Part shown: piece after piece, positions 1,272 to 62,557 of the stretch | Layout of the letters: each line of letters opens with the position of its first letter | Position numbering within the stretch: position 1 is the first letter of the stretch | Assembly (NCBI RefSeq): GCF_035917275.1 | Contig: NZ_CP108509.1 | Location: 1,116,001 to 1,180,000 of the forward strand | DNA length: 64,000 bases | Source: Streptomyces sp. NBC_01237 | GTDB lineage: Bacteria > Actinomycetota > Actinomycetes > Streptomycetales > Streptomycetaceae | Direction: 5' to 3' | Program-made: the position numbers and the translations under genes | The notes under the pieces: model-generated | What the model was told of the DNA's origin: nothing | The model's input: the letters and a program-made list of their open reading frames with translations, nothing else | Databases searched by the model: none

Positions 1272-1494
1272 TGTCATACCCACGACTTTACCCGGCAACA
1301 AGAACAAGACCACCCGCCTTTACCTGACGAGCAATGTATGACGGTGGGCCGGGGGCGCATTTCGCTGGACTCACCGAACGGGTACAGCAGAACAAAGTGA
1401 ACGCATGTCGTGGTTTTCGAAACGTCGTCGTGGCGTTCCAGATCCCCGGCCGACAGATGCGACATCGCCAGAAGTCGGGACGGAGAAAAGGGTG

Positions 1495-3000
1495 ATGCAC
1501 ATGGTGGGTTCTGTCTTTGTCATGCCCGGTACGGTGGCTCCCCCGCGCGGGGGGATCCTGCGCGACTTCCACAACCGGTACGAGACCGTACGTGAATCGC
1601 TTTCCCTCATCGACAGGGCAGCCCGGGAAATGGGACTGCCCGACATCAGCGCCCGGCTGATCGAGCACAACGGGACGAGCGACCGGCGCGGTCCCGAGGT
1701 GCAGTATCTGGAGATCTTCGCGGTCGCCATCGCGACGCACCGTGTGCTGATCGCCGAGGGAGCCCGGCCGGTCGCGATCGTCGGGCAGAGCATCGGGGAA
1801 CTGTGGGCCCTGGCCGCCGCGGGACGCCTCTCCGTGGAGGACGCCGCGCGCCTGGCCGTGGCCCGGTCGCAGGCGCTGACCCGGCAGGGCTGGGGCGGAA
1901 AGATGCTCGCGGTCGGCGTGGACGGCCGCCGGGCGGAGTCGCTCACCGGCCTGATCGGCCATCCCGACCTGGTACTGGCCTGCGAGAACACGCCTCGGCA
2001 GAGCGTCATCAGTGGCCCCGAACCACTGATCGAGCATGTGGAGCGGGTGGCCGACGCGCTCGGCTGGCCGAGTTTCCGCCTGGACGTCCCGCATCCGACC
2101 CATACCCCCGCGATGGCGCAGGCCGCCCGCGACCTTCGGGCGGCCGCGCCACGGGTTCCCTACGGAGCCGGGCGCTGGCGGGTGTGCTCCCCCTGGCTGG
2201 GGCGGGACATCGGCGACGACGACCCGGTCGACCTGGTCGCCGACGCGCTCACCGCCCGCGTCCGCATGCTGCACACGATCCGTGACCTGCACGCGGCGGG
2301 CGCCGATGTCTTCGTGGAGTGCGGCGAGTGGCCCGTCGTCACCAAGTTCGTCGAGGCGTCGGTCCCGGGCGTGCGGTGTGTCGTTCCGCTGAGCGAGAGC
2401 GACCCGGTCGAAGCCGTCCGGGCACTGGTCGCCGAGTCCACCGACAGTGGTCCGTTCCGCCCGCGCCTGCCGCTGCCGTCGAGCAACGGACACGGTCCCA
2501 CCGTGCGGGTGAGCACGGCCACTTCGGCCGACCGGGTTTCGGCGCTCCCCGCCACCGTCCCATCGCCCCGGGCCGACGTGCCCGCGCCCACGCCCGCCAT
2601 GTCCTATGTGGCCACCGTCCCCCTTCCGGCCCCGGTGGCCCCCGCGGCCCCGGTGGCTCCGGCCCCGATCGCCCCGGCCGACCCCGTCGACGCGGCGGCC
2701 CCGGCCGCCCCGGAGGGCTCGCCGACGTCTGCCGGGTTGGACTACGAGACGGTGCTGGCCGAGTTGCAGACGCTCTACGGCGATTTCCTGGGCTACCCGC
2801 CGGACCTGCTCGGTGAGGACGACGGACTGGAGTCCGAGCTGGGTGTGGAGTCGCTCAAACAAGTCGCCCTGCTCGGGCGGGTGTCCGACCGGTTCGACCT
2901 GCCCGGTCTGCGGGCGAACTCCTCCCTGCTGACCGTCGGCACACTGCGCCGGATCGCGGAGTCCGTCGTACAGGGCCGGGCGGAGGCTGCCGCGCGATGA
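1495..3000 (+). CDS. Discrete acyltransferase-ACP protein of the iterative PKS
   Basis: Two-domain protein of about 501 residues. The N-terminal 330 residues form a malonyl-type acyltransferase: nucleophile Ser near residue 100 in GQSIGE, catalytic His in VPHPTHTPAM near 200, and the late FVECGEWPVVTKFVE block. An Ala/Pro-rich linker (about 345-415) leads to an ACP with the phosphopantetheine Ser in GVESLKQ near 452. It would load extender units and carry the growing chain for the synthase encoded next, which has neither AT nor ACP; the two genes overlap by 4 bp. ATG 1495 is preferred because GGAG lies 9 nt upstream; an in-frame ATG at 1405 lacks a ribosome site. The usual specificity quartet (HAFH or YASH) reads HPTH here, so the extender cannot be predicted safely. 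Confidence 0.88.
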   Translation: MHMVGSVFVMPGTVAPPRGGILRDFHNRYETVRESLSLIDRAAREMGLPDISARLIEHNGTSDRRGPEVQYLEIFAVAIATHRVLIAEGARPVAIVGQSIGELWALAAAGRLSVEDAARLAVARSQALTRQGWGGKMLAVGVDGRRAESLTGLIGHPDLVLACENTPRQSVISGPEPLIEHVERVADALGWPSFRLDVPHPTHTPAMAQAARDLRAAAPRVPYGAGRWRVCSPWLGRDIGDDDPVDLVADALTARVRMLHTIRDLHAAGADVFVECGEWPVVTKFVEASVPGVRCVVPLSESDPVEAVRALVAESTDSGPFRPRLPLPSSNGHGPTVRVSTATSADRVSALPATVPSPRADVPAPTPAMSYVATVPLPAPVAPAAPVAPAPIAPADPVDAAAPAAPEGSPTSAGLDYETVLAELQTLYGDFLGYPPDLLGEDDGLESELGVESLKQVALLGRVSDRFDLPGLRANSSLLTVGTLRRIAESVVQGRAEAAAR

Positions 3001-6000
3001 CCTCCACCGACAACCTGCGAGGCCGGGTCGCCCTCGTGACCGGGGCCGCGAAGAGCCTCGGCGCGGACATCGTTCGCCGGCTGGCGGGGAACGGCGCCCA
3101 TGTGATCGTCAACTACTTCCACTCGGTCGAGCAGGCGAAGCAGCTGCGGGCGGAGCTGGAACAGGCCGGTCACAGCTGCGAGTTCATCCGCGCCTCGGTG
3201 GCCAAGACCAGCGAGATCGACCGGATGTTCGACCTGGTCGAGGAGCGGCACGGCCGTCTGGACATTCTGATCAACAACGCCGCGGGCGGAGCGTTCCTGC
3301 CACTGTTCGGCATCGACGACACCTATTGGCAACGGGCGTGGTCGACCAATGTGATGGCGGCGTACCACTGTTCGCGCCGCGCGGCCGAGCTGATGGCGGG
3401 GCGAGAGGGCGCGAGCATCCTCTGTCTGTCCAGTGTCGGGGCGCACCAGCCGGTTCCGGGGTACGGCCCCGGCGGCGTCACCAAGGCGGCCCTGGAGTCG
3501 CTGGTCCGCTACCTGGCGCTTGAGCTGGTGGGCCGTGGCATCCGGGTCAACACGGTGCTGCTCGGGTCCGTCGCCAGCGAGATCGTCGTCAATCTCGACG
3601 CCCCGGACGTGGCGCTCGGCGACCCGGCCGGGACCAGCGAGCTGATGCGCCGTACCCTCTCGACGCCGGAGGCCGCCAGGTTGATCGTCCACCTCCTGCA
3701 CGAGGACACCGGCTTCATCACCGGGCAGACCATCGTCGCCGACGGCGGCATCAGCATCGGCGGGATGCAGGGGATGCGGCTGCACAGCAGGCTGGCCGAC
3801 CAGGTGAGTACGCCCGCCCCGCGCCAACCGTTCCCGCCCGCGGTGGTGATGACACCCGAGGCGGGAAGGCCCGCCCCCGAACAGCCGGCGGCTGTCCACC
3901 ACGCGCCTGCACCCACACCTACGCCTGTGCCTGTGCCTGCCTCCGCACCTGTACCTTCGCTTGAACGTGTACCTGCTTCCACCCCCGTACCTGCGCCACC
4001 CACGACCGCTCCGGCTCCTGCACCGGAGCCGGCTCCGGATCGAGAGGCGGAGACGGACCCCGGAGCCGTCGCGGTCGTCGGCCTCGGCCTGACCCTGCCC
4101 GGCGCGAACAACACGGCGGAGTTCTGGGACCGGCTGCGGGAGGGTGTCCTGCTCTCCAGCGAGCCGTCCGCCTTCGACCTGAAGCACTTCTGGGCGCCCA
4201 CCCGGGAGGAGACCGACGCCTTCTACGTCCGCGAGGCCGGGTACCTCCACACCTTCGTCCCCGATCCCGCCTCGATCACCGAACCGGACGGGAACGTCGG
4301 CCACCCCGGATGGCCGCGGACCACTCGCTGGCTGCGACACTGCGCCGTCCAGGCCCTCGCAGGGGTGGCCCGGCGTCCGGAGGACCGGTGGCTGGCCGCG
4401 ACCACGGGTATCCACGACCAGACGGGGCTCGGCCCCCAGGGCGTGGTGCTGGGTGACGAGTACCGGCGCATGGTGCGCGAGGCGATCCCCGCGGACCGGG
4501 ACGGCGACTGGCTGGCCGAGCTGGCCGACCACGCGATCAGCGCGCACTACGGAGGCGACGGCGGGAGCCCGCAGGCCTACCTGCCCGCGTCCGTCTCCCG
4601 CGACGCGTTGCGCGGGCTGATCCCCGCCGACTCGCAGCACCTGACTCTCGACTCGGCCTGCGCCAGCGGACTGTTCACCCTGGACGCGGCGGTCAAGGCA
4701 CTGCGCGAGGGCTCCTGCGACGTGGCGCTGGCCGGCGGCACCGCGGTGGTCGAACCGATCGGGTTCACCCTCTTCTGCCGGGCCCAGGGCATCTCGATGA
4801 GCGGCAGGGTGCGTCCCTTCGACCGGGCGGCCGACGGGACCCTCATCGGTGAGGGCGCCGTCATGCTCGCCCTGAAGTCGTACGCGCGGGCCGTGGCCGA
4901 CGGCGACCGGGTGCTCGGTGTCATCCGGGGCACCGGTCTCGCCGCCGACGGCCGGGGAAAGGGGATCCACGCCCCGGCCACCCGCGGGCAGCAGCTGGCG
5001 ATCGCCCGTGCCTGGGCCGACGCGGGCGTCGAGGCAGACGACGTGGACTGGATCGTGGCACACGGCACCGGCACGCCGGTGGGCGATGAGATCGAACTGC
5101 GCTCGCTGCTCTCCCGGCTGGGGCCGCGGAAGCGGGCGTGCCTGCTGACGTCGAACAAGCAGGTCTTCGGGCACACCGGTGTGCTGGCGGGCCTGGTCTC
5201 GGTCGCGCACGCGCTGGTCGCTCTCGAACGCGGGGCGGTCCCCGGTCAGCCCGTGGTCACCGATCCGCACGCGCTGCTGGGTGACGGCACGCGGCTGACC
5301 GTACCGGTCAAGGACGCGCCCTGGCCGGCGGACGACGCACGACCGCGCGTGGTGGGGGTGTCGTCGTTCGGCCTCGGCGGAGCCGACGCGCACGTGGTCC
5401 TCTCCGACCGTGTGCCGCGGGCCGTGCCGGCTCAGAGGCGGGGCGGCGACCGGTCCGCCGACACGGAGGACCTGGTCGTCGTGGGCTGGAACACCCACCT
5501 GCCCGGCCTGGACCCCGCCCAGGTGCCCGCCTGGCTGCGCGGCGACGGCCCGCTCCCGGAGGCCGGTTTCGGTACGCCGTACCCCCTGCCCTCCCCACGT
5601 GACGTACGCATCCCGCCGCTGACGATGCGGCACATGGACGCCGCCCACCTGATGATGCTCCAGGTCCTCGGCCCGCTGCTGGACCGGCTCGGCGAGCCGG
5701 GCACCCGCCTGCGGCCCACCACGGCGGTGCTGGTGGGGTCGACGCTGCCGACCACGCACAACACCCGGGCCGCACTGCGGGTGCACGCCCGCGAGTGCGC
5801 CACCACGTTCGACATCCTGCCGGACCCGGCGCAGGCACAGACGCTGAAGAACTACCTCGCGAAGGGAATGGAGGAGGCCAAGGGGGTGATCCCCGGCGAC
5901 CTGAACGAGGACGACTTCACCGGTGCGGTCTCCTGCATCCTGTCGGGCCGGGCCGCCAACTACTACGACTTCCAGGCCATGGGCACCAGTGTCTACTCCC

Positions 6001-9000
6001 ACAGGGACTCCGCGCACACCGCGGTCGACCTGGCCCTGCGCCAGCTCAGGCACCGGGCCTGCGACCTCGCCCTCGTCGGCGCGGTCTGCCTGCGACCGAT
6101 CAGCGGATGGGACCGCCACCTCACCGGTCTGGTGCCGCAGGGCCGGTCGATCGCGGAGGGTGCCGCCGTCCTGGCGGTCACTCGGCTCTCCACCGCCCTG
6201 GAGCACAGCCTGCCCGTCCTGGGCACGCTCTCCACCGCGGCCGGTGAAGCCGGCCCCGGGCCATCGGCAACGCCCGCGCACTCCCTTCGCGCGGTGGCCG
6301 ACGCCGGACACACCTATCTGTCGCTGGACGCCCTGCTCACCGTCCTTGAGGCCGTCGTCACCGGAACGGACACCGTCGTGACGCCCGCAGCCGCCGGATC
6401 ACCGCCGATCCGGTTCACCCGGCCCCCGGCCGACCCGGAGCACCACAGCCCGGCCGGGGAGGAGTCGGCACAGGATGCGCACCCCGGGCGGGAGCACACC
6501 GCGCCCGACCCGGCCACCTCGCCGGAACACACCACTCCCGACCGGACCACCTCGCCGGACCTTCCCGCGACCGTCCGGACGGGTCCGGAACCCGCCGCGC
6601 CCGACCTGACCACTCCGCCGGAACTCACCACGACCGACCGGGGCGGGCCGGAGCGCACCGAGGACGTCCTCGGCCGTCGCCAGACCTTCCGTCTCGTCCC
6701 GACTCCCCCACCGACGGGCGACCCTGACGCGCCGTCGATCCCGCCGGGCACCGTCGTCATCACCGACGCCCCGGACCTCGCCGCGGCGGCCGGCGGCCCG
6801 GACATCGCCGTCTGGTCACCGCGGCCGGGGCTCGAAGCCGCCGCCCATGTCCCGCCCGAGGCGGCGCCCGAGGCCCTGACCGGTCTGCCGTTCGTCCCGC
6901 GCCACATCCGGGTCCTGTCCCGGCTGCCCGTCCTCCACGACGGGGACGACCACGCGTGCGACGAGGCCGAGGCCACCCGGATGGAAGATCTCCAGGACCT
7001 CACGTTCACCACCCTCCAGGCGGCACTGCCCGCCCTGCGCACCGGCGGTTCCGTCAGCGCGCTCCTGCTCGGGGCGGTGCCGGACGACCTCCCGCCCCCG
7101 CTGAGCGCCCTGTTCACCGGCCTCGTCCGCTCCGTGCGGGCCGAGGTCCCGCAGTGCGGCGGGGTGACCCTGCTCAGCGACACGGCGGACCCCACGACCG
7201 CTCTGGACCAGTTGGCGAGGGCGGGCACCGCCCAGGTGCCGACGCGCACACTGGCCTGGCGCGGCGGCAGTTGGCTCACCCTCGCCGTCGCCGACGACCC
7301 GGCGCCGACGGCCCCGGCGGATCATCTCCCGCTGCCGCCCGGCGCGGTCGTGGTCGCCTTCGGCGGCGCACGGGGCATCACGCCCGAACTGCTCCACGCG
7401 GTCGCCCGTACCGGCGACCGGCCGCACATGTACCTCGTCGGCCGCACCCCGCTGCCGGACACCGACGACGCGCTGCCGCCGCAGGCCGAGTTCATCACCG
7501 CCGAACGCCGCCGACGCCCCGGGGCGTCGGTGGGCGAGCTGCGCGCGGCGTACGAGAAGGCCCAGGCGCGCCTGGAGGTACGCCGCACGGTGCGGCGGCT
7601 GGCGGAGCTGTGCGGACCGGACCGTGTCCACCACCGGGTGTGCGACATCCTGGACGCCGAGCGCACCACCGCCGTCCTCGGCGAGATCCTCGACCGGCAC
7701 GGCCGGATCGACCTGCTCGTCAACACGGTCCTCGACCTGCGTTCGCGTGCGCTGCACGCCAAGACCCTGACCGATTTCCGGGCGGTACGGGCCACCAAGG
7801 CGACCGGCTACCGCAACCTCAAACGGGCGCTGGCCGGGCGTCCGCCCCTGATCTGGTGCAACTTCAGCACCCTGGCGACGCTCGCTCCCGCGCCCGGTGA
7901 CATCGACTACTGCGCCGTCAACGAGTACCTGGCGTACGCGAGCGCGTGGGCACAGCGGCACGGACCGGACGGCCACCACGAGACGGCGATCCTCTGGAGC
8001 GGCTGGCGGGAGGTCGGCGTCGCCAGCAGCGTCACCATGCGGGAGACCCTCAAACGCAACCGGATGGACGCCTACGTCAGCACCGCGCAGGGATGCGCGC
8101 AGTTCCTCTCCGCAGTGACCCGGCCACCGGCCAACGGGGTGGCGTTCTTCATCCGGGAGGAGGAACGCGTCCTGCTGGCCCGGCGCGGGATCAGCACCTG
8201 GGGTTCCTCCGGCGAGCTGCGGATCCCCGCCCCGGACGCGCCACCGCCCGCCCCGCCGGATCCGGCGCTGGCCTCGCCGCTGCTCGACGGTGTCCTGCAC
8301 CGCGGCAAGAACTGGGCCGTCTTCACCAAGACCTGGGATCCGCGCACGCTGGCCGAGCGGGACGGGCGGTGGATGCGCCACCACCGGGTCAACGGTGAGT
8401 ACACGCTGCCCGGCACGTTCGCCCTGGAGGCCGCGGCCGGCGCGGCATCGACGCTCTGCCCCGGCCTCCAGGTCACCGGGTTCCGCGCTCTCGTCTGCCG
8501 GACGTCGATCACGGTCAGGCTCGCCGGGCCGCCGCGCACCGTCGCGGTGGAGGCCCGGGTCACGAGCCGCGAGCGCGACCGGGCCGAGGTGGCCGTCAGG
8601 ATGACGGCGCACCGGATCGGCAAGAACGGCAAGGTGCTGCGCTTCAACGACCTGTTGTGCGAGACGACGGTCGTGCTGGCGGATCGCTTCCCCGATCTCG
8701 CCGGCCCTCCCGACTGCTCGTCCCACGAACCCGAACCCGGTTTCGCGATGCCGGTCTACTCCCCCGATCCGCCGATCTCGCTCACCGGTCCGTTCGCCGG
8801 GACCAGCGACTACGCCCGCGGGCCGGACGGGAACAGCGCCCGGTTCAGCCTGGACCACACCGCCTGGGCTCCGGTCCTGGCCGGGACGACCGTACCGGCG
8901 ATCCTGCTGGACGCGATGGTGCATCTGTTGCTGCTGCCGCCGCGCGGTGACCACCCGCCTCTGGTCGGCCCGATGGCCGGCCTCGACGAGGTCGACCTCA

Positions 9001-9203
9001 GGGGGCCGGGCAACGACTGCCGGCTCAGCGCGGAGAACCCGGCCATCCGGCTGCACTGCGACTTCGCCACCGGGACCCTGACCGCCGTGACCGGTCACGG
9101 CCGGGTACTGGCCCGGATCACCGGGGTCAGCGCCCACGCCCTGGACCACAGCGGAGAACTGGTCCGGCCGCGCGCCCGCGTTCCGCAGTCGCCCCTTTCG
9201 TGA
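2997..9203 (+). CDS. Iterative PKS / PUFA-like synthase: FabL-type ER - KS - CLF - KR - DH
   Basis: 2068 residues. Domains in order: an SDR (about 5-255) most like the enoyl reductase FabL, with GAAKSLG, NNAAGG and a Y-x6-K motif (YGPGGVTK); a Pro-rich linker (265-350); an active KS (355-800) with Cys in DSACASG near 555, AHGTGTPVGD near 686 and NKQVFGHTG near 720; a KS-like chain-length-factor domain (820-1165) in which Asp replaces the Cys (SHRDSAHTA); a Thr/Pro/Glu-rich linker (1165-1235); a KR (about 1440-1720) with GGARGIT and DYCAVNEY; and a C-terminal hot-dog dehydratase (1750-2060) with HHRVNGEYTLPG near 1795. KS-CLF pairing is typical of PUFA synthases and related secondary lipid synthases. 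AT and ACP come from the upstream gene. There is no thioesterase, so release must be by another protein. Confidence 0.88.
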   Translation: MTSTDNLRGRVALVTGAAKSLGADIVRRLAGNGAHVIVNYFHSVEQAKQLRAELEQAGHSCEFIRASVAKTSEIDRMFDLVEERHGRLDILINNAAGGAFLPLFGIDDTYWQRAWSTNVMAAYHCSRRAAELMAGREGASILCLSSVGAHQPVPGYGPGGVTKAALESLVRYLALELVGRGIRVNTVLLGSVASEIVVNLDAPDVALGDPAGTSELMRRTLSTPEAARLIVHLLHEDTGFITGQTIVADGGISIGGMQGMRLHSRLADQVSTPAPRQPFPPAVVMTPEAGRPAPEQPAAVHHAPAPTPTPVPVPASAPVPSLERVPASTPVPAPPTTAPAPAPEPAPDREAETDPGAVAVVGLGLTLPGANNTAEFWDRLREGVLLSSEPSAFDLKHFWAPTREETDAFYVREAGYLHTFVPDPASITEPDGNVGHPGWPRTTRWLRHCAVQALAGVARRPEDRWLAATTGIHDQTGLGPQGVVLGDEYRRMVREAIPADRDGDWLAELADHAISAHYGGDGGSPQAYLPASVSRDALRGLIPADSQHLTLDSACASGLFTLDAAVKALREGSCDVALAGGTAVVEPIGFTLFCRAQGISMSGRVRPFDRAADGTLIGEGAVMLALKSYARAVADGDRVLGVIRGTGLAADGRGKGIHAPATRGQQLAIARAWADAGVEADDVDWIVAHGTGTPVGDEIELRSLLSRLGPRKRACLLTSNKQVFGHTGVLAGLVSVAHALVALERGAVPGQPVVTDPHALLGDGTRLTVPVKDAPWPADDARPRVVGVSSFGLGGADAHVVLSDRVPRAVPAQRRGGDRSADTEDLVVVGWNTHLPGLDPAQVPAWLRGDGPLPEAGFGTPYPLPSPRDVRIPPLTMRHMDAAHLMMLQVLGPLLDRLGEPGTRLRPTTAVLVGSTLPTTHNTRAALRVHARECATTFDILPDPAQAQTLKNYLAKGMEEAKGVIPGDLNEDDFTGAVSCILSGRAANYYDFQAMGTSVYSHRDSAHTAVDLALRQLRHRACDLALVGAVCLRPISGWDRHLTGLVPQGRSIAEGAAVLAVTRLSTALEHSLPVLGTLSTAAGEAGPGPSATPAHSLRAVADAGHTYLSLDALLTVLEAVVTGTDTVVTPAAAGSPPIRFTRPPADPEHHSPAGEESAQDAHPGREHTAPDPATSPEHTTPDRTTSPDLPATVRTGPEPAAPDLTTPPELTTTDRGGPERTEDVLGRRQTFRLVPTPPPTGDPDAPSIPPGTVVITDAPDLAAAAGGPDIAVWSPRPGLEAAAHVPPEAAPEALTGLPFVPRHIRVLSRLPVLHDGDDHACDEAEATRMEDLQDLTFTTLQAALPALRTGGSVSALLLGAVPDDLPPPLSALFTGLVRSVRAEVPQCGGVTLLSDTADPTTALDQLARAGTAQVPTRTLAWRGGSWLTLAVADDPAPTAPADHLPLPPGAVVVAFGGARGITPELLHAVARTGDRPHMYLVGRTPLPDTDDALPPQAEFITAERRRRPGASVGELRAAYEKAQARLEVRRTVRRLAELCGPDRVHHRVCDILDAERTTAVLGEILDRHGRIDLLVNTVLDLRSRALHAKTLTDFRAVRATKATGYRNLKRALAGRPPLIWCNFSTLATLAPAPGDIDYCAVNEYLAYASAWAQRHGPDGHHETAILWSGWREVGVASSVTMRETLKRNRMDAYVSTAQGCAQFLSAVTRPPANGVAFFIREEERVLLARRGISTWGSSGELRIPAPDAPPPAPPDPALASPLLDGVLHRGKNWAVFTKTWDPRTLAERDGRWMRHHRVNGEYTLPGTFALEAAAGAASTLCPGLQVTGFRALVCRTSITVRLAGPPRTVAVEARVTSRERDRAEVAVRMTAHRIGKNGKVLRFNDLLCETTVVLADRFPDLAGPPDCSSHEPEPGFAMPVYSPDPPISLTGPFAGTSDYARGPDGNSARFSLDHTAWAPVLAGTTVPAILLDAMVHLLLLPPRGDHPPLVGPMAGLDEVDLRGPGNDCRLSAENPAIRLHCDFATGTLTAVTGHGRVLARITGVSAHALDHSGELVRPRARVPQSPLS

Positions 9204-9221: not shown

Positions 9222-10238
9222 GTGTTGTGGCAGAACATCGCGATCGCCGGTACCGGCGCATGGGTACCACCCGTCAGAGCCGGGCACGAACCGTGGGACC
9301 GGGCGGCCACCGAGCAGCCCTCCCTGGCGGCGCTCAACGGATTCACCTCGGCCGCCGTCTCGACGGACAGCACGGCGACGCAGATGGCGGCCCGCGCCGG
9401 CCTCAAGGCGCTGCGCCACGCGGACGTCGCCGGCGCCGATCTGAGCCTGCTCGTGCACGCCAACTTCCAGGACGGGGACCACTACACGCCCGCGCCGTAC
9501 CTGCTGCGGGTGCTCGGGGGGCCGGACACCAACGGGATCGAGCTCGGGGCCGCCAGCGACGGCGGGGCTGCGGCGCTCGTCGTCGCGGCCGAGCACCTCA
9601 CCGCCAGGCCGGACGCGAAAGCCGCGCTGGTCACGGCCGCCGGTCGGTTCCCGGAGGAGCGATGGGGCCATTCCCAGGAGATGAACTACGTGCCCGGTGA
9701 CGCCGGCGCCGCCGCCGTCCTCACCCGGGGAACGGGCTTCGCCCGCCTGGTGGCGACCGCCCACGCCACGGAGCCGCAACTGGAAATGCTCACCCGGGCC
9801 AGGACGGGGCCCGTCGGGGCCGACCGGTCGTTCCCCATCGAGGAGACCGGGTTCATGCCCCACATCGACGCGCTGCAGCGGTCCACCCGCCGCTGCATCG
9901 AGACCGTCCTGGAGGAGACCGGTGTGAGACCGGCGGACATCTCGCACGTGGTGTCCATCGCGATCGGGTCGGTCGTGCTGGACCTGGTGCTCGCCGGCTC
10001 ACCGCTCAACGTCCGGTCCGGCGAGACCGCCTGGACCTTCGGCCGCCACCTCGGCCATGCCGGGCCGTGCGACGTGCTCCTCGCCCTCGACCGGTTGTTC
10101 CGCTCCGGCACCCTGCGGGCCGGGGAACGCATCCTCGTCGTGAGTTTCGGAGTCGGCTTCCGCTGGACCTCCGCGCTGCTCGAGGTCACCCATGATCACG
10201 CCGCCGCGGTGCCGGCCGGCCGATCCACCAAGGAATGA
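9222..10238 (+). CDS. KAS III-like protein with replaced catalytic triad
   Basis: 338 residues with the FabH/thiolase fold along its whole length (C-terminal VSFGVGFRWTSALLEV matches the FabH end). The active-site Cys is Ser (GAASDGG, where FabH has AACxG). The His position reads VVSIAIGSVV, and the Asn position reads LGHAGPCD, so none of Cys-His-Asn is kept. Such homologues (DpsC, CerJ and relatives) use other nucleophiles or act as acyltransferases. With no thioesterase in the operon, chain release or acyl transfer is a reasonable guess; starter selection is another. GTG start follows AGGAG with 8-nt spacing. Its stop overlaps the P450 start (ATGA). Confidence 0.83.
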   Translation: MLWQNIAIAGTGAWVPPVRAGHEPWDRAATEQPSLAALNGFTSAAVSTDSTATQMAARAGLKALRHADVAGADLSLLVHANFQDGDHYTPAPYLLRVLGGPDTNGIELGAASDGGAAALVVAAEHLTARPDAKAALVTAAGRFPEERWGHSQEMNYVPGDAGAAAVLTRGTGFARLVATAHATEPQLEMLTRARTGPVGADRSFPIEETGFMPHIDALQRSTRRCIETVLEETGVRPADISHVVSIAIGSVVLDLVLAGSPLNVRSGETAWTFGRHLGHAGPCDVLLALDRLFRSGTLRAGERILVVSFGVGFRWTSALLEVTHDHAAAVPAGRSTKE

Positions 10239-11710
10239 GGCTGTCCATGACCGACTCGACCGCGGCGACCGCCGCGTCGGTTCCGCTCGCCCCGCGGGCC
10301 CTGCCGCTGCTGGGCCACGCGCTGCCGCTGCTCCGCGATCCGCTGGCGTTCATCATGTCCCTGGCCGAGTACCGCTCGATGGTCCGCGTCCGGCTCGGAC
10401 CGAGTACCGCCGTGATGATCTGCGATCCGGCCCTGACCCGGCAGGTGTTCCTGAACGACCGGGTCTTCGACAAGGGCGGCCCGATCTACGACCGGATCAG
10501 CGAGGTCATCGGCGACGGCCTGTCCACCTGCTCGTACACCCTGCACCGGCGGCAGCGGCGGCTGTGCCAGCCGTCGTTCCATCCCACCCGGCTCGCCGGT
10601 TACGGGGTGGTGTTCGCCCGCGCCGCCCAGCTGAAGGCGGGCTCCTGGCACGACGGTGATGTCCTCGACGTCACCCAGGAAATGATGACGCTGACGACGC
10701 GAGCCACCATGGAGACGATGTTCAGCGGCTCGCTGTCGGAGGAGACCATGCGGCGGTCCCTGGCCGACACCGCCACCATCGTCAGCGCGTTCTTCCGCCG
10801 GATGATGACACCGCCCCTGCTGCGCCGGCTGCCGACTCCGCGGAAGCGGCGGTACGACCACGCCCGCAACCGGCTGTCGGCCACCATCGCGGAGATCATC
10901 GCCGAACGGCGGGCCGATCCGACCGACCATGCCGACCTGCTCTCCGCACTGGTCGGGGCGGTCGACGAGGAGAGCGAGGACGGCAAGAAGCAGCTCAACG
11001 ACACCGAACTGGCCGACGAAGCCCTCACGTTCTTCCTCGGCGGGATGGAGACGACGGCGATCACCCTGGCCTGGGCGCTGAACCTGCTCGCCACGCACCC
11101 GGACGTCCAGCGCCGCCTCCAGGCCGAGACCGACAGCGTCCTGGCCGGTGGGCAGCTCGATCCCGCACACCTGCCCTCGCTCGGCCTGGCCGCCCGCGTG
11201 GTGACCGAGGCACTGCGGCTGTATCCGCCCGCCTGGATGATGACCCGCACCCTCAGGGAGGACGCCGAACTCGGTGGCGTACGGCTCAAGGGCGGCAGCA
11301 TCCTGGTGCTCAGCCCGTACCTCCTGCACCGCCGGCCCGACCTCTACACCGAGCCCGACCGGTTCGACCCGGACCGCTGGCTCGGCGCCCAGCCCGACCG
11401 GGCCACCTACCTCCCGTTCGGTGCCGGCCCCCGTAAGTGCATCGGGGACCAGTTCGCCCTCAATGAAGCCATCCTGGCCCTCACCGCCATCGTCGCGCGC
11501 TGGGAGGTGTCCCCCGTCGACGACGAGCCGTTCCGGCCCAAGGTGGAGACCAGCCTGAGTTCGCGCGGGCTGGGCCTGCGGCTCAGTGAGCGGCGGACGG
11601 GCGGCGCCGGCGGTACCGGCCTCCGCGACGCGGCCGTGCCGCGACCCGCGTCCGCCCAGCCGTCCGCGGAGCCGGGCGGCGCGTGCCCGGTGAAGCACGG
11701 GGAGCGATGA
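10235..11710 (+). CDS. Cytochrome P450 monooxygenase
   Basis: About 490 residues with all P450 signatures: I-helix GGMETT, ExxR in EALRLYPP, and the haem loop FGAGPRKCIGDQFA with the Cys thiolate. Length and motifs are those of a class I/CYP102-type bacterial fold without a fused reductase, so it needs external redox partners not encoded nearby. The C-terminal 40 residues (Ala/Pro/Gly-rich) extend past the usual end. Start is either ATG 10235, overlapping the KAS III stop, or ATG 10247 (MTDSTAATA). Position in the PKS operon suggests hydroxylation or epoxidation of the polyketide chain. Confidence 0.93.
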   Translation: MRLSMTDSTAATAASVPLAPRALPLLGHALPLLRDPLAFIMSLAEYRSMVRVRLGPSTAVMICDPALTRQVFLNDRVFDKGGPIYDRISEVIGDGLSTCSYTLHRRQRRLCQPSFHPTRLAGYGVVFARAAQLKAGSWHDGDVLDVTQEMMTLTTRATMETMFSGSLSEETMRRSLADTATIVSAFFRRMMTPPLLRRLPTPRKRRYDHARNRLSATIAEIIAERRADPTDHADLLSALVGAVDEESEDGKKQLNDTELADEALTFFLGGMETTAITLAWALNLLATHPDVQRRLQAETDSVLAGGQLDPAHLPSLGLAARVVTEALRLYPPAWMMTRTLREDAELGGVRLKGGSILVLSPYLLHRRPDLYTEPDRFDPDRWLGAQPDRATYLPFGAGPRKCIGDQFALNEAILALTAIVARWEVSPVDDEPFRPKVETSLSSRGLGLRLSERRTGGAGGTGLRDAAVPRPASAQPSAEPGGACPVKHGER

Positions 11711-11714
11711 CGCC

Positions 11715-12824
11715 ATGAAGCCTCACCTGAAGCCGCTGGTGAAGAACCTTCTCAGTTCCCGGCAGGCCGATCCGCTCGCCGCGGCACCGGCCGACGCCCT
11801 GCACGCTCCCTCACGCCCTTACCCGAACGGGTGGTTCTGCCTGGCCTTCACCGACGAGGTGCGGCCCGGCTCCGTGACCACCCGTCCGCTGGCGGGCGCG
11901 GAGGTCGTCCTGTACCGGACGGCCAACGGCACGCTGCGGGCAGTGCGGCCCCGGTGCCCGCATCTGGGAGCGCATCTCGGGGTCGGCGGATGGGTCGAGG
12001 GTGAGGACATCGTCTGCCCCTTCCACCAGTTCGCGTTCGGCCCGGACGGTACCTGCGTACGCACGGGATACGGCGAACCACCGCCGAAGGCGTCCCTGTC
12101 GCCGTACCCGGTGTGCGAGGCCAACGGCTCGGTCTATGTGTGGTGGCACGCCCTGGGCCTGCCCCCGCAGTGGGACGTGCCGCTCTTCCCCATGGACGAC
12201 CGGCAACCGTTCAGCCATGACACGTTCGATCTCGCCGGTCATCCGCAGGACGTCATCGAGAACGCGTTCGACTGGGGTCATCTGCCGACGCTGCACGGTC
12301 TGAAGGGTCTCGACATCGAGGGCGCACCGGTGGCCGGACAACAGGTCGGCACCGTCACCGCGACCGCCCGCGGCACCATGATGCGCGGCTTCCGCCAGTC
12401 CTACACGCTCACGGTGATCGGACTGGCCACCATCGCGGCGCGGACGGTCCTGCCCCGGGGCGCGGGCAGCCTGTACGTGATGCTCCACGCGACGCCGACC
12501 GGTCCGGGACGCATCCAGCTCCGGTTCGGTACGAAGCTGGAGCTGAGCGGCGTCCCCGGCCTGCCCGACAGGATGGGGCGCGCGGCGGTGATGCCCGTCG
12601 CCAGGCTGCTCAGCGCCGTACTCCAGCGGGTGGCGAGCGTCGACACCGGCGCGGACCTGCTGATGTGGCATCACCAGGAGCATGTCGAGCATCCGAAGCT
12701 CGCCAAGGGGGACGGTCCGATCGGCCGGTACCGGCAGTGGGCGCAGCAGTTCTACACGGAACCCACGGGCGGCCCGGCACCACCGCGGCCCTCCCGTACC
12801 GAGGCGATCCGCGCCGAGGAGTGA
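11715..12824 (+). CDS. Rieske [2Fe-2S] non-haem iron oxygenase
   Basis: 369 residues. The N-terminal Rieske domain carries CPHLGAHLG (near 78) and CPFHQFAFG (near 98), the Cys-x-His ... Cys-x2-His cluster ligands. The catalytic domain carries ENAFDWGHLPTLH (near 180), the Asp-x-x-His-x4-His type mononuclear iron motif. The closest general relatives I can name are the KshA/cholesterol 7-desaturase-type oxygenases. It lies 4 bp after the P450 gene, so both probably tailor the same product. No ferredoxin or reductase partner is visible in the window. Confidence 0.9.
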   Translation: MKPHLKPLVKNLLSSRQADPLAAAPADALHAPSRPYPNGWFCLAFTDEVRPGSVTTRPLAGAEVVLYRTANGTLRAVRPRCPHLGAHLGVGGWVEGEDIVCPFHQFAFGPDGTCVRTGYGEPPPKASLSPYPVCEANGSVYVWWHALGLPPQWDVPLFPMDDRQPFSHDTFDLAGHPQDVIENAFDWGHLPTLHGLKGLDIEGAPVAGQQVGTVTATARGTMMRGFRQSYTLTVIGLATIAARTVLPRGAGSLYVMLHATPTGPGRIQLRFGTKLELSGVPGLPDRMGRAAVMPVARLLSAVLQRVASVDTGADLLMWHHQEHVEHPKLAKGDGPIGRYRQWAQQFYTEPTGGPAPPRPSRTEAIRAEE

Positions 12825-12986: not shown

Positions 12987-13880
12987 ATGGCAGCGGAGAG
13001 CGGTACGCCCACAGCGGGGCACCGATTGGCTGTGCTCGGGGCGGGGGTGATGGGGTCGGGCATCGCCGCGCTGGCGGTCGGGCACGGCATCGCGGTGTCG
13101 CTGATCGACCTGGACCGGCGCCGGCTGGACGAGGCCCCGGCGAGGATCGGCCACCAGGTGCGGATGGCGCGGCTGATGGGCGCGCTGCCGGACGAGGCCG
13201 TCCCCGGCGCTCTCGTCACCGGTCTGTCGCTCGACCGCCTGGTGGCGGCCGAGGACGCGGCACCCACCGCGGTGATCGAGGCGGTCACCGAGGACGCCGA
13301 CGCCAAGGCGAAGGTGCTCGCGGACGTGTCCGCACTGGTCGCGCCCGGCACCCCGATCATCTCGAACACGTCGGCGATTCCCATCGACGAACTCGCTCGG
13401 GCGACGGCACGGCCGGTGGATCTGATCGGCACCCACTTCATGAATCCGCCCTACCTGATCCGGACGGTAGAGGTCATCCGGGGTAGGCACACCGGCGAGG
13501 CCACCCTGGACGCGCTGCGGGCACTGCTGGCCGCGCTGCGCCGCGTACCGGTCGTGGTCGGCGACGCGCCGGGTTTCGTCACCAGCCGGATCCTGCACCC
13601 CATGATCAACGACGCGGTCCGGGTGGTGGCGGCGGGTACCGCGAGCGCCGAGTCGGTCGACCGGCTCATGCAGGGGTGCCTGGGTCATCCGACGGGACCG
13701 CTCCGCACCGCCGACCTCATCGGGCTGGACAACCTGGTCGACTCGCTGTGGGTGCTGCACAGCCGGACCGGTGACGAAGGGTGCCGCCCCTGCGGCCTGT
13801 TGCTGGAGATGGTGCGGGCGGGCCACCTCGGCCGCAAGAGCGGGCGCGGCTTCTACGAGTACGAGGGAGAACACGCATGA
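12987..13880 (+). CDS. 3-hydroxyacyl-CoA dehydrogenase-like enzyme of methoxymalonyl-ACP synthesis (FkbK-type)
   Basis: 297 residues with an N-terminal Rossmann fold (LGAGVMGSGIAALAV) and the C-terminal 3-HAD helical domain (GFVTSRILHPMINDA, HLGRKSGRGFYEYE). In FK520, ansamitocin and geldanamycin clusters such a protein oxidises glyceryl-ACP on the way to hydroxymalonyl-ACP. The next genes (ACP, acyl-CoA dehydrogenase, FkbH) are exactly the companion set, which makes the assignment strong. RBS AGAGGGA precedes the ATG. A 162-bp gap separates it from the Rieske gene; it may be a second transcription unit or just an operon spacer. Confidence 0.9.
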   Translation: MAAESGTPTAGHRLAVLGAGVMGSGIAALAVGHGIAVSLIDLDRRRLDEAPARIGHQVRMARLMGALPDEAVPGALVTGLSLDRLVAAEDAAPTAVIEAVTEDADAKAKVLADVSALVAPGTPIISNTSAIPIDELARATARPVDLIGTHFMNPPYLIRTVEVIRGRHTGEATLDALRALLAALRRVPVVVGDAPGFVTSRILHPMINDAVRVVAAGTASAESVDRLMQGCLGHPTGPLRTADLIGLDNLVDSLWVLHSRTGDEGCRPCGLLLEMVRAGHLGRKSGRGFYEYEGEHA

Positions 13881-14179
13881 CCATGCCATCCGACCGGCCG
13901 GTGCCGGAACCCGTCGACGGCCCGGGAAGCGTCCGGACGGACCTGCTGAGGTTCCTGGAGCGGCAGACGGGGAGGGCCTGGGCGACCGATGCGGACGTCT
14001 TCGGTTCCGGTGGGTTGTCCTCGCTCTTCGCCATGGAGCTGGTGGTGCATCTGGAGCGGACGTACGGTATCGCCATCCGCGGCTCCGACCTGCGGATGGA
14101 GAACTTCCGTACGGTGCTGCGGATGGCCGCTCTGGTCGAACGGCTCCGGCAGCCGGCCCCGGGCGGCTCCCATGCGTGA
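13877..14179 (+). CDS. Acyl carrier protein of the methoxymalonyl cassette (FkbJ-type)
   Basis: 100 residues, starting in the ATGA overlap with the preceding gene. The phosphopantetheine Ser lies in FGSGGLSSLFAMELV near residue 50; the LSSLFAM form is that of FkbJ/AsmI-type carrier proteins dedicated to glycerate-derived extender units. The three-carbon unit would be loaded here by the FkbH-like protein, oxidised and O-methylated while ACP-bound, then passed to the acyltransferase of the PKS. Its 3' end overlaps the next gene by 8 bp. Confidence 0.9.
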   Translation: MTMPSDRPVPEPVDGPGSVRTDLLRFLERQTGRAWATDADVFGSGGLSSLFAMELVVHLERTYGIAIRGSDLRMENFRTVLRMAALVERLRQPAPGGSHA

Positions 14180-15278
14180 AGCGGTCGCCGCGGCGTCCTC
14201 GGGCCTCACCGAACTGGTCGGCGACCGGGCGTCCGCCTGGGACCGGGCGGGCCGGCTGCCCGAGGATGTGGTGCGGAAGCTCGGTGCGGCCGGGCAGTTG
14301 GCCACTCAGATCCCGGCGAGGTACGGCGGACCGGGGTGGACCAGCGCGGACAGCGGCGAGTTCACCGCCCGTGCCGGCAGCCTGTGCAGCTCGCTGCGGA
14401 GTGTCATGACCTCGCAGGGCATGGCCGCGTGGACCGTCGAGCGGCTCGGTGACCCGGCACAGGCGGCGGAACTGCTGCCGCGGCTGGCCTCGGGTGTCAC
14501 GGCGGCCGTGGCCTTCAGTGAACCGCAGGCGGGCAGCGACCTGTCGGCCATCGCGACCACCGTCACCGTCGAGGGGGACACCCTGGTGCTCACCGGTCAC
14601 AAGAAGTGGGTGACCGCCGCCGCCTACGCCGATCTCTTCCTGGTCGTCGCCCGGATGGGTGAGGAGGGTGCCGTGGTGGTGGTGGACCGGGCCGCCCCCG
14701 GCGTCCAGGTGCGACGGGTGGCCGATCCGCTGGGCTGCCGGGCGGCCGGGCACGCGGAAGTCCGGCTCGACGGGGTGCGGTTGCCGATCGGCAGCCTGCT
14801 GGGCGGCGGGCGGCAGCCGCTGTCCCTGCTCGTGACGACGGCCCTGGCCTACGGCCGGATCTCCGTCGCCTGGGGCTGTGTCGGGATCCTGCGGGCCTGC
14901 GTGGCGGCGGCCCGCGACCATGCGGCGTCCCGGCACCAGTTCGGCCGGCCGCTCGGGCAGCACCAGCTCGTCGCCCGGCATCTGGCCGACCTGTGGACCG
15001 CGGAGCAGGTCGCCACCCGGGCCTGCGAGCACGCCAGCCGCCGCTGGGACGAGAACGGGGCCGACCTGGCCACCGCCATCGTGCTGGCGAAGTACGTCAG
15101 TGCCCGGAACGCGGCCACGGGCGCGGCCGCCGCTGTCCAGGTGCTCGCGTCGGCCGGGGCGCAGGACGGGCACATCGTCGCGCGGGCGTACCGCGACGCC
15201 AAGCTCATGGAAATCATCGAGGGCAGCAACGAGGTGTGCCAGCTGATCCTGGCCGAGCACACGCTCGGCCGGAGGTGA
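14172..15278 (+). CDS. Acyl-CoA dehydrogenase-like flavoenzyme of methoxymalonyl-ACP synthesis (FkbI-type)
   Basis: 368 residues with the acyl-CoA dehydrogenase fold: AFSEPQAGSDL (FAD/substrate loop) near residue 115, SRHQFGRPLGQHQLVARHLAD in the third domain, and EIIEGSNEVCQLILAEH at the C-terminus. The catalytic base region near the C-terminus reads IIEGSNEV. In the methoxymalonyl pathway this enzyme converts the hydroxyaldehyde stage to hydroxymalonyl-ACP. ATG 14172 overlaps the ACP stop, so the genes are translationally coupled. A longer in-frame ORF reaches back to 13989 but covers the ACP gene out of frame and was not used. Confidence 0.9.
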   Translation: MREAVAAASSGLTELVGDRASAWDRAGRLPEDVVRKLGAAGQLATQIPARYGGPGWTSADSGEFTARAGSLCSSLRSVMTSQGMAAWTVERLGDPAQAAELLPRLASGVTAAVAFSEPQAGSDLSAIATTVTVEGDTLVLTGHKKWVTAAAYADLFLVVARMGEEGAVVVVDRAAPGVQVRRVADPLGCRAAGHAEVRLDGVRLPIGSLLGGGRQPLSLLVTTALAYGRISVAWGCVGILRACVAAARDHAASRHQFGRPLGQHQLVARHLADLWTAEQVATRACEHASRRWDENGADLATAIVLAKYVSARNAATGAAAAVQVLASAGAQDGHIVARAYRDAKLMEIIEGSNEVCQLILAEHTLGRR

Positions 15279-15321
15279 CCCCGCCCGTGGCCGTCGAAGA
15301 AGTCGTCGCAGGGAGCCGAAC

Positions 15322-16446
15322 ATGAGCGACACCGCCCCGGCGGTCCCGCCCGCGACCGTGAAGTGCCTGGTCTGGGATCTCGACAACACGCTCTGGCGCG
15401 GCACACTGCTGGAGGACGGGGACGTCGTCCTGTCCGATGCGATCCGCGAGGTGATCACCGGCCTGGACGCGCGGGGCATCCTCCAGTCGGTGTGCAGCCG
15501 CAACGACCACGACCACGCCTGGGCACGGCTGGAGGCACTCGGTGTCGCCGACTGCTTCGTCCTCCCGGAGATCGGCTGGGGGCGCAAGTCGGACGCCGTA
15601 CGCCGGATCACCGAGCGGTTGGACTTCGCTCCCGGCACCGTCGCCTTCATCGACGACCAGCCGGCCGAACGGGCCGAGGTCGCCCACCATCTGCCGGAGG
15701 TGCGCTGCTACCCCGCGGAGGCCGCCGAGACGCTGCTCGGCCTGCCCGAGTTCAGCCCGAGGTCGGTGACCGTCGACTCGCGGCAGCGCCGGAGGATGTA
15801 CCAGGCCGGCTTCCGGCGCACGGACGAGCGGGCGCGGTTCACCGGCTCGCACGAGGACTTCCTGCGCTCGCTGGACATGGTGATGAGCATCGGGCGGGCC
15901 ACGGAGGACGAACTCGCGCGGGTCGAGGAACTGACCCTGCGCACCAGCCAGATGAACGCGACCGGGGTGCACTACCCGGACGAGGTGCTGCGCGCGCTCC
16001 TCGCCCACCCCGGCTACGAGATTCTGGTCACGACGCTCACCGACCGCTTCGGGCCGCACGGTGCCGTGGGTGTCGTGCTCCTCAGGAAGCACGCGGAGGC
16101 ATGGCACCTGAGGCTGCTGGCCACCTCGTGCCGTGTGGTGGCGTTCGGCGCGGGGACGCTCATCCTGAACTGGCTGGTCGACCAGGCCGCCCGAGCCGGT
16201 GTCCACCTGCTGGCGGACTTCCGTGCCACCGACCGCAACCGGATGATGGAGATCGCCTACCGGTTCGCCGGCTTCGACGAGCAGCCCTGCGCGTGCCGGA
16301 TTCCGGTCTCGGGGAGTTCCGGCGACGACGTCCAGCTGCTGCACCTCGTGGCCGATCGCCGGGACTCCCCCACGGTGGCCCGCCTGATCGCTCCGCATCT
16401 GACCGACCGGACCTCACCGGCCGGGGGCTCGGGCCTTCCGGAGTGA
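15322..16446 (+). CDS. fkbH: FkbH-like HAD-family glyceryl transferase/phosphatase
   Basis: 374 residues. The HAD motif WDLDNTLWRG (DxDxT) near residue 18 and FIDDQPAERAEV near 110 mark the phosphatase/transferase domain. The C-terminal half is GNAT-like (LRTSQMNATGVHY, GAVGVVLLRKHAEAWHLRLL). FkbH proteins take 1,3-bisphosphoglycerate, dephosphorylate it and load the glyceryl group onto the dedicated ACP; this is the committing step of methoxymalonyl-ACP formation. Last plus-strand gene of the operon, followed 9 bp later by a strong palindromic terminator. Confidence 0.93.
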   Translation: MSDTAPAVPPATVKCLVWDLDNTLWRGTLLEDGDVVLSDAIREVITGLDARGILQSVCSRNDHDHAWARLEALGVADCFVLPEIGWGRKSDAVRRITERLDFAPGTVAFIDDQPAERAEVAHHLPEVRCYPAEAAETLLGLPEFSPRSVTVDSRQRRRMYQAGFRRTDERARFTGSHEDFLRSLDMVMSIGRATEDELARVEELTLRTSQMNATGVHYPDEVLRALLAHPGYEILVTTLTDRFGPHGAVGVVLLRKHAEAWHLRLLATSCRVVAFGAGTLILNWLVDQAARAGVHLLADFRATDRNRMMEIAYRFAGFDEQPCACRIPVSGSSGDDVQLLHLVADRRDSPTVARLIAPHLTDRTSPAGGSGLPE

Positions 16447-16454
16447 GCGCGGCG

Positions 16455-16493
16455 TCACCGGATCGGGCCGGTCGGACCGGCCCGATCCGGTGA
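16455..16493. terminator. Perfect 39-bp bidirectional terminator hairpin
   Basis: Two 19-bp arms (TCACCGGATCGGGCCGGTC and its exact complement) flank a single base. It lies between the stops of the converging fkbH-like and O-methyltransferase genes, so it should end transcription from both sides. No T-tract, as is usual in streptomycetes. Confidence 0.85.
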
Positions 16494-16496
16494 CGG

Positions 16497-17159
16497 TCAC
16501 CGTCGGCGGACCAGGGTGATGCCGTCGGCCATCGGGAGCATGCAGAGGTCGACGCGCCGATCGTCCCGGATCCTGGCGTTGAGCTCACGGACACCGGCGG
16601 TGTCCGCGTCGTCGGCGAGGGGGTCGATGACCCGGCCCGCGAGGAGCGTGTTGTCCACCACCAGCAGTCCGCCCGGCCGCACGAGCCGCAACGCCAGCTC
16701 GTAGTAGCGCGGATAGTTCGCCTTGTCGGCATCGATGAAAATGAGTCCGAAGCTCTCGGAACGGCCGTCGGCGAGCATCTCCTCAAGAGTGTCGATCGCG
16801 GCACCGATGCGCACGTCGATCCGTTCCTCGACGCCGGCACGCCGCCAATGGCCGGCACCGATCTCGGGCCACCGCTCACTCATCTCGCAGGTGACCAACC
16901 GACCGTGCGGCGGAAGAGCGCGAGCCATCCACAAGGTGCTGTAGCCGGTGAACGTGCCGATCTCCAGCACGTCCGCGACACCCGCGGCCGCGATGAGGAA
17001 CGCGAGGAGCTGCCCCTCCTCGGCCATGACGTGCATCGATTCCCCACCGGGCAACTCTGCGGTCACCCGGCGCAGATCGCGCAGGATCTCATCCTCCCTG
17101 AGAGAGGATTCCCTGACATATTCCAGAAGCTCCGGGCCGACCGAAACCTGATGCGCCAC
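16497..17159 (-). CDS. SAM-dependent O-methyltransferase (FkbG/MdmC-type)
   Basis: 220 residues, CCoAOMT-like class I methyltransferase. Motif I is VLEIGTFTGYSTLWMARAL near 67; metal/catalytic Asp residues are in FIDADKANYPRYY near 137 and LLVVDNTLLAG near 162. In the cassette it would convert hydroxymalonyl-ACP to methoxymalonyl-ACP. Unlike the other four genes it is on the opposite strand, converging on fkbH. It is 3 bp downstream of a small DUF5988-type gene, with which it forms its own operon. Confidence 0.9.
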   Translation of the reverse strand: MAHQVSVGPELLEYVRESSLREDEILRDLRRVTAELPGGESMHVMAEEGQLLAFLIAAAGVADVLEIGTFTGYSTLWMARALPPHGRLVTCEMSERWPEIGAGHWRRAGVEERIDVRIGAAIDTLEEMLADGRSESFGLIFIDADKANYPRYYELALRLVRPGGLLVVDNTLLAGRVIDPLADDADTAGVRELNARIRDDRRVDLCMLPMADGITLVRRR

Positions 17160-17162
17160 TGC

Positions 17163-17408
17163 CTACTCGGCGATCTTCGTGCTGTAGTGGAACCGGAACA
17201 CGGGCACCGTCCGGCCCTCCACCAACGCCGTCTCGCTGGTGCGCACGAAGCGCTGATGCCGTCCGTAGAAGGCCACGATGAGCCGCGATGCGTCCGCGAC
17301 GATCCCTTCCGGCAGCCGTTGCACACGCGGGAGTTCCGGTGGCCCGCCGCACAGCACCACCAACCGCCCTGCCCCCGTCGCATCCTCGCCGGCCATGCCC
17401 ACCCCCAC
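17163..17408 (-). CDS. Small DUF5988-family protein
   Basis: 81 residues (or 77 from ATG 17396, which lies 11 nt after GAGAGG). The C-terminal VEGRTVPVFRFHYSTKIAE and the N-terminal VVLCGGPPELPRV match what I recall of DUF5988, a family of short proteins frequent in streptomycete biosynthetic clusters and of unknown role. It is the first gene of a two-gene operon with the O-methyltransferase (3-bp gap), so it may assist that step or be transcriptionally tied to it. The upstream 197-bp gap to the SDR gene is relatively AT-rich and probably holds the promoter. Confidence 0.7.
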   Translation of the reverse strand: MGVGMAGEDATGAGRLVVLCGGPPELPRVQRLPEGIVADASRLIVAFYGRHQRFVRTSETALVEGRTVPVFRFHYSTKIAE

Positions 17409-61230: not shown

Positions 61231-61302
61231 GATTGCCCCTGCTCAGGAGTGAATCGGGCGGGCGAAGGCCCAGCCCGCACGGGGCGCATTCGGATACGTG
61301 TA

Positions 61303-61334
61303 CGACCCCGGATTTCTGAAGTATGCCGGGGTCG
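61303..61334. promoter_or_regulatory. Hairpin between the protease and L,D-transpeptidase genes
   Basis: 9-bp arms CGACCCCGG/CCGGGGTCG with a 14-nt loop, in the 328-bp gene-free stretch 61231-61558. It could end the upstream transpeptidase transcript or act as an operator for the protease gene. Nothing else is visible in this stretch. Confidence 0.4.
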
Positions 61335-61558
61335 CTCGGACGCACTCAATGATCGTTGTGTAACAGCCGCTCGGAGTGATCGGGCTTACCCGGAAGGGGT
61401 GTTCGGCCCCGGATTCCCGGCACACGCGGCCACTTGGGCGTGTGGATCCACGGGCGGACGGCACTCGGCCGTGTCCCCGCACAGCCGGACCTCGCCCGCT
61501 TCCTGGACATCGGAATGCCCCACGCCACGGCCCCGTGCCTCCCCCGGGCCCGACCGGA

Positions 61559-62350: not shown

Positions 62351-62479
62351 GCCGACCTCCGCGTCTCGTGCGGCACAGCTCCCGGCGACGTGTGACCACC
62401 GGCGCTCACCGGGCGACCGTCGCCCCTGCCACCCCACAGCTATCAGGAGCGGCCCGTCCGCGCCGCGCGGAGTATGCCG

Positions 62480-62540
62480 AACCGGTGAGGCCCCCGGGAC
62501 GGCACACGGGGAACGCGGCCGTCCGGGGGCCTCACCGGTT
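62480..62540. terminator. Long hairpin terminator of the surface-protein gene
   Basis: Arms of about 23 bp (AACCGGTGAGGCCCCCGG... and its complement) with one bulged base and a 14-nt loop, just beyond the stop of the Cna-B protein gene. Confidence 0.8.
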
Positions 62541-62557
62541 TCGGGGAGGGAAATGGG

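Follow-up and report, generated by a model that had tools for sequence, protein, structure and literature searches.

What does the reducing polyketide synthase (PKS) encoded near the start of this locus make, and is its product already known? The locus lies in a stretch of 64,000 nucleotides from Streptomyces sp. NBC_01237 (NCBI RefSeq assembly GCF_035917275.1, contig NZ_CP108509.1, positions 1,116,001 to 1,180,000 of the forward strand), the whole of which is called the window below. Two overlapping genes encode an acyltransferase (AT) protein with an acyl carrier protein (ACP) domain and a large protein with short-chain dehydrogenase/reductase (SDR), ketosynthase (KS), chain length factor-like (CLF), ketoreductase (KR) and dehydratase (DH) domains. 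The original prediction took them for a different subclass of iterative synthase with no recognisable product. It overlooked that the pair stands at the head of a ten-gene cassette, which includes a methoxymalonyl-ACP set, and the claim of novelty fails because the published galbonolide (rustmicin) cluster has the same gene content and order. Galbonolides are 14-membered macrolides with antifungal activity, which occur in Streptomyces and Micromonospora. We regard the finding as settled: the ten genes very probably serve the biosynthesis of galbonolide, an already studied cluster. The analysis still offers a set of additional carriers, an instance of possible extender-unit sharing between clusters that can be put to the test, and a family of sister synthases.

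Correspondence to the galbonolide cluster

Nine genes of the cassette lie on the plus strand, and the tenth, coding for an O-methyltransferase, is convergent. The cassette divides into five core genes and five genes of a methoxymalonyl-ACP set, and this partition equals that of galABCDE and galGHIJK as described in PMC11074319. There, galABCDE is sufficient for galbonolide B, and galGHIJK is required for galbonolide A. In strain AgN23 the genes gbnA-E are accompanied by a methoxymalonyl pathway, gbnH-K, and a strain in which gbnB (AS97_41300), the polyketide synthase gene, is disrupted no longer makes galbonolides A, B, E or G (PMC11463028). According to the same source, several S. violaceusniger-clade species carry the gbn cluster, galbonolides are found in S. 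galbus and Micromonospora, and the compounds inhibit inositol phosphorylceramide synthase and aid rhizosphere colonisation by Streptomyces AgN23. Galbonolides are also classed as products of iterative type I PKS (PMC5183585). For galbonolide A or B, m/z 379.21 is given in PMC11463028 and [M+H]+ 365.23 in PMC11074319.

In the features compared, the cassette thus resembles the gal/gbn cluster of S. galbus, Streptomyces sp. LZ35 and AgN23 in its five-gene iterative type I PKS core with a neighbouring methoxymalonyl locus, and in its taxonomic range (the S. violaceusniger clade, other Streptomyces and Micromonospora). Because gene content, order and taxonomic range all agree, we assign the cassette with high confidence to galbonolide biosynthesis; a close match to a characterised cluster with a known product therefore exists in these respects. 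Some points weigh against the assignment. The main gap is that the likeness to the proven gal/gbn clusters was judged by gene content, order and distribution rather than by sequence identity. The description of the AgN23 cluster in PMC11463028 names four methoxymalonyl genes, while the window has five. Finally, a family of sister synthases described below shares the domain order, hence domain order alone cannot identify the product.

The split synthase

The AT-ACP gene (1405..3000, plus strand, 531 aa) overlaps the synthase gene (2997..9203, plus strand, 2068 aa) by 4 bp; position 1495 falls inside the open reading frame (ORF) that starts at 1405, at an in-frame ATG for its residue 31. By their order the two genes would be galA/gbnA and galB/gbnB, respectively. 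Pfam matches comprise an AT (PF00698) and a PP-binding domain (PF00550) in the first protein and SDR, ketoacyl-synt N and C, KR and PKS_DH_N domains in the second, with one PP-binding match in the former and none in the latter. The predicted overlap and domain composition, including the Cys-less KS-like domain, were thus confirmed by ORFs, Pfam and motifs, and the domain-by-domain search of profile models in Pfam and NCBIfam recovered AT, ACP, SDR, KS, KR and DH.

Motifs were counted in the window and 18 further loci for the synthase (19 rows) and in the window and 17 loci for the AT-ACP protein (18 rows). The GQSIGE, R, H and ACP Ser motifs of the latter are present in 18/18 rows. In the synthase, the SDR domain has Y-x6-K (YGPGGVTK) in 18 of 19 rows, the remaining row being truncated at the site; we take this signature to be typical of enoyl reductases. 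The top match of the domain among solved structures is FabL (3oic, E 2.7e-40), and it scores 194 bits against the NCBIfam FabL model, under the cut-off of 328. The signature and these matches suggest that the SDR domain is an enoyl reductase (ER). The Cys and both His residues of the first KS domain are kept in all 19 rows, as is the S...Y...N motif of the KR. The DH has HxxxG and DAxxH in 19/19 rows, the Pro of HxxxGxxxxP being replaced by Ala in eight of them.

The second KS-like domain, assigned as CLF, carries Arg at the position of the Cys in all printed variants (16 of 19 rows). This is the weakest domain assignment: it was made by place and motif, and the domain's own similarity is weak, a search with it alone giving two PKS matches, the better being 2hg4 (E 0.0024). 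Structure predictions made from 19 close sequences had a mean pLDDT of 40 for KS-CLF and 48 for KR-DH, did not yield the CLF fold and were not used.

A KS and a CLF-like domain in one chain and iterative reducing chemistry are shared with the synthases of polyunsaturated fatty acids (PUFA; PfaA-D) and secondary lipids (types A-T). A synthase of that type with a long-chain acyl product would also fit the alignment of the KS over nearly its full length (residues 5-452 of 487) to the second-best PDB chain, 6riw ('ORF10'), which we take to be a KS-CLF didomain of the PfaC type. The top-scoring chain is 7zma, a 'putative polyketide synthase' of the modular type that matches residues 195-453 of the KS piece, and the alignment of the KS-CLF query with 6riw ends at residue 482, so that the CLF is not covered. 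Tandem ACPs are typical, though not universal, in PUFA and secondary lipid synthases, while here the AT protein carries a single ACP, there is one DH, and the place of PfaD is taken by an SDR; among its ten genes, scanned with Pfam and NCBIfam, no match to a PfaD-type flavin enoyl reductase was found. The Pfa system is laid out as KS-MAT-ACP(4-6)-KR / AT / KS-CLF-DH2 / ER (PMC3098273). The predicted split AT-ACP arrangement holds, and so does the predicted difference from PUFA synthases in tandem ACPs and PfaD. As methoxymalonyl-ACP, P450 and Rieske genes accompany the synthase, a lipid product is already contradicted by gene content and is extremely improbable; the number of ACPs, the type of reductase and the make-up of the cassette led us to reject it.

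The other genes of the cassette

The third gene (9222..10238, plus strand), by order a putative galC, encodes a KASIII-like protein closest to DpsC, CerJ and ChlB3, its top PDB match being DpsC (4xs7, E 9.2e-33). Ser stands at the Cys position in 19/19 rows, as in DpsC, of which this Ser is presumably the nucleophile. Unlike in DpsC, the His of the aligned 'PHMG' is absent: the position is not His in any of the 18 of 19 rows printed. The candidate galD (10235..11710, plus strand) codes for a cytochrome P450, which reaches 391 bits against the NCBIfam pentalenene-oxygenase model, under the cut-off of 800, and has the heme Cys motif in 27/27 rows (four loci counted twice). The fifth gene (11715..12824, plus strand), whose order would make it galE, encodes a Rieske oxygenase with weak Rieske-family matches (best 48 bits) and with CxH and CxxH motifs in 26/26 rows (some loci counted twice).

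The last five genes (12987..17159) are the methoxymalonyl-ACP set: a 3-hydroxyacyl-CoA dehydrogenase (12987..13880, plus strand; NCBIfam, 244 bits, under the cut-off of 408), a free-standing ACP (13871..14179, plus strand; PF00550, 27 bits) with the Ser motif in 25/25 rows (some loci counted twice), an acyl-CoA dehydrogenase (14160..15278, plus strand; NCBIfam models, best 161 bits, under their cut-offs), an FkbH-like protein (15322..16446, plus strand; TIGR01686, 348 bits, over the cut-off of 147) and the convergent O-methyltransferase that ends the set (16497..17159, minus strand; PF01596, 215 bits), in place in 14 of 19 loci. These are the functions of the methoxymalonyl-ACP module, namely FkbH, ACP, acyl-CoA dehydrogenase, 3-hydroxyacyl-CoA dehydrogenase and O-methyltransferase. 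A five-gene module for methoxymalonyl-ACP biosynthesis is described in PMC6395733. Butyrolactol, considered on account of FkbH, was dropped, as no modular PKS is present among the ORFs of the window that were scanned.

Conservation and distribution

A scan of genome contigs yielded 21 loci. In 19 of them the synthase is 71-96% identical in its best segment; the other two are one distant match (26%) and one fragment at a contig edge. Conservation at this level across species rules out chance for the gene pair. All ten genes are present in the same order in 14 of the 19 loci, across Streptomyces and Micromonospora (in one of the 14, L008, the contig begins within the AT-ACP gene). L009, L010, L018 and L019 are without some genes, L017 is cut by the contig end, and L010 is also cut on the AT side. 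Among the carriers are S. iranensis, S. niphimycinicus and S. samsunensis, which we take to belong to the S. violaceusniger clade. Micromonospora accounts for five loci, including an edge fragment. None of the loci bears the label S. galbus, LZ35 or AgN23. In a separate sample, the CLF was found at an identity of at least 77% in 11 of 392 genomes of the window's genus, the window's genome included. In a tree of 27 rows, built without PfaC or HglE references, the Streptomyces and Micromonospora synthase orthologues (9 rows) form one clade with a support of 100/100.

The genes flanking the cassette vary between genomes: in flanks of up to 10 kb, no gene outside the cassette is common to more than four loci. 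A supply of starter units to a neighbouring modular PKS or nonribosomal peptide synthetase (NRPS) was rejected on this ground. The same observation, together with the high identity of the synthases and the preserved catalytic motifs and gene order, speaks against a related cluster whose machinery is the same as for galbonolides but whose product is a new congener or another macrolide. Such a product is unlikely, even though small changes in programming would be invisible in domain content and the window has flanks particular to its own group, with an upstream AraC gene and a downstream DUF5988 gene common to L004 and L013 and a TetR-like gene common to L004. The four long Micromonospora loci have two upstream genes in common. 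The DUF5988 gene (17163-17408, minus strand) adjoins the cassette, as it does in L004 and L013, and L002 (S. sp. YIM 121038) likewise has a DUF5988 gene close to an AT-ACP / SDR-KS pair.

Proposed biosynthetic scheme

On the galbonolide assignment, a highly reducing iterative synthase of one module, divided between the AT-ACP and SDR(ER)-KS-CLF-KR-DH proteins, would build the macrolide chain, and the DpsC-like KASIII would be its third component. The AT would load extender units onto the ACP, KS-CLF would condense them iteratively, and KR, DH and SDR would reduce the chain to a varying degree. One extender would be methoxymalonyl, which the FkbH-type set assembles on the free ACP, giving galbonolide A; methylmalonyl in its place at that step would give galbonolide B. 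This replacement of methoxymalonate by methylmalonate reportedly takes place at the fourth extension. The P450 and the Rieske oxygenase may then oxidise the product and so finish the molecule. The KASIII-like protein, being without the Cys and the His, could act as an acyl transferase in priming or ring closure. For S. galbus, a 2014 report in J Biol Chem is said to describe GalA-C as a single-module highly reducing PKS, GalD as a P450 and GalE as a Rieske protein, and the product of a galD mutant reportedly lacks two hydroxyls and one double bond.

Cassettes that lost extender enzymes

Five loci (L010 and L074-L077) have lost both dehydrogenases, FkbH and the methyltransferase and have kept the free ACP; short remnants of the 3-hydroxyacyl-CoA dehydrogenase persist in L074 and L076. 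In L019 the 3-hydroxyacyl-CoA dehydrogenase has an in-frame deletion, the acyl-CoA dehydrogenase and FkbH are left only as pieces, and the ACP is intact, whereas L009 is without FkbH and the methyltransferase. All seven cassettes that lost FkbH have an ACP with an intact Ser motif. The galABCDE core on its own is also a reported cluster form, and the five loci resemble it except for the ACP that they keep.

These loci, which keep the core without four of the five extender genes, could suggest that the two synthase enzymes and the genes downstream are separate pathways lying side by side. That is scarcely credible given the free ACP retained even there, the ten genes kept in order in 14 of 19 loci from two genera and the published need for both parts in galbonolide A production (PMC11074319).

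A search for FkbH elsewhere in the genomes, in which copies of less than 60% identity were not scored as extra, found at least one other FkbH away from the cassette, at 64-71% identity, in 7/7 genomes whose cassette had lost it (those of L009, L010, L019 and L074-L077). Genome G403, with a short-form cassette, has one such match. A further copy of at least 60% identity was present in only 2 of the 17 genomes with the cassette FkbH in place, namely 15 genomes (L017's copy being on another contig), that of L018 and the window's own, where the cassette FkbH is the only one. The difference is significant in a one-sided Fisher test (1.0e-4), although the genomes are not independent and shared ancestry confounds it. 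Genomes G002 and G169 were merged as one on account of identical match coordinates, and the window's genome and that of L004, taken as the same species, were both scored. The named genomes with extra FkbH copies (those of L005, L007, L009, L010 and L019) all belong, we assume, to the S. violaceusniger group.

Nineteen other FkbH loci were read, 18 at 64-71% identity and one (L089) at 45%. Among the 18, L028/L079 and L030/L086 had been fetched twice, leaving 16 distinct loci, and in 15 of these (the exception being L031) an ACP and an acyl-CoA dehydrogenase stand beside FkbH. For the methyltransferase, four genomes whose cassette is without it were searched, and each has another at 56-63% identity. 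Here there is no contrast: both genomes tested with a local copy (L005 and L007) also hold others (58-63%).

The simplest reading of the cassettes that lost FkbH and kept the ACP is a supply of methoxymalonyl in trans; if such strains made just galbonolide B, the retention of the ACP would be left unaccounted for. More tentatively, and with somewhat less than an even chance, another cluster of the genome (geldanamycin-type or similar) might load the free ACP in trans, the two clusters sharing enzymes with the ACP as the exchange point. Both these cassettes with FkbH elsewhere and the sister synthase family may be new.

A family of sister synthases

With the CLF as query, matches at E 1e-10 or better and 29-36% identity were found in 31 of 392 genomes, five candidates per genome being scored; several of the frames have internal stops. 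Seven of the 31 genomes also carry the galbonolide cassette. We compared 16 Streptomyces regions of up to 20 kb from 15 genomes (L054-L069; L066 is the same record as L003, and L068 the same as L002). An AT-ACP-like ORF stands beside the synthase in 15 of the 16 (one cut by the contig), and the last region ends at the contig edge. The sister pairs share the split with the galbonolide synthase. Where they have the SDR, as Pfam shows for L057, in which it is N-terminal on the synthase, and for L001, they share the domain order too.

Sister and galbonolide KS-CLF are 32-40% identical in the best aligned piece, and the sister rows of the tree fall outside the 100/100 galbonolide clade. ORF comparison of the 16 regions with the cassette gave no match for KASIII, Rieske, ACP, acyl-CoA dehydrogenase, FkbH or methyltransferase, and a lone cassette-like dehydrogenase was seen in L063 (37%). 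A P450 and a protein of 700-828 aa occur in 8 of 16 regions, the latter having a KR by Pfam in L057. Products of the sister family were not found in the literature, in a search confined to mechanistic terms.

The family also includes a Paraburkholderia ginsengisoli locus (L001, 13388-25079), which encodes an AT protein, an SDR-KS-CLF-KR-DH protein and a P450-KR fusion. Its AT protein has no ACP match at the level of Pfam, and its KS-CLF groups with six Streptomyces sister rows (support 100/98).

Other features of the window

A separate-looking second cluster (21525-41862) holds three NRPS genes, with the Pfam domains A-PCP-C-A-PCP, C-A-MT-PCP and C-A-PCP-TE, and an MFS transporter gene, beside genes for a P5C reductase, an aminotransferase, an aldehyde dehydrogenase and a glutamate-kinase-like protein. 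Further downstream, ATP-grasp, methyltransferase and aminotransferase genes adjoin each other (48437-51734, minus strand) next to an AfsR/SARP-like regulator (51842-54607), and a subtilase (1112 aa), a YkuD L,D-transpeptidase and a SpaA-domain protein are encoded in a row at 57892-63979 (minus strand).

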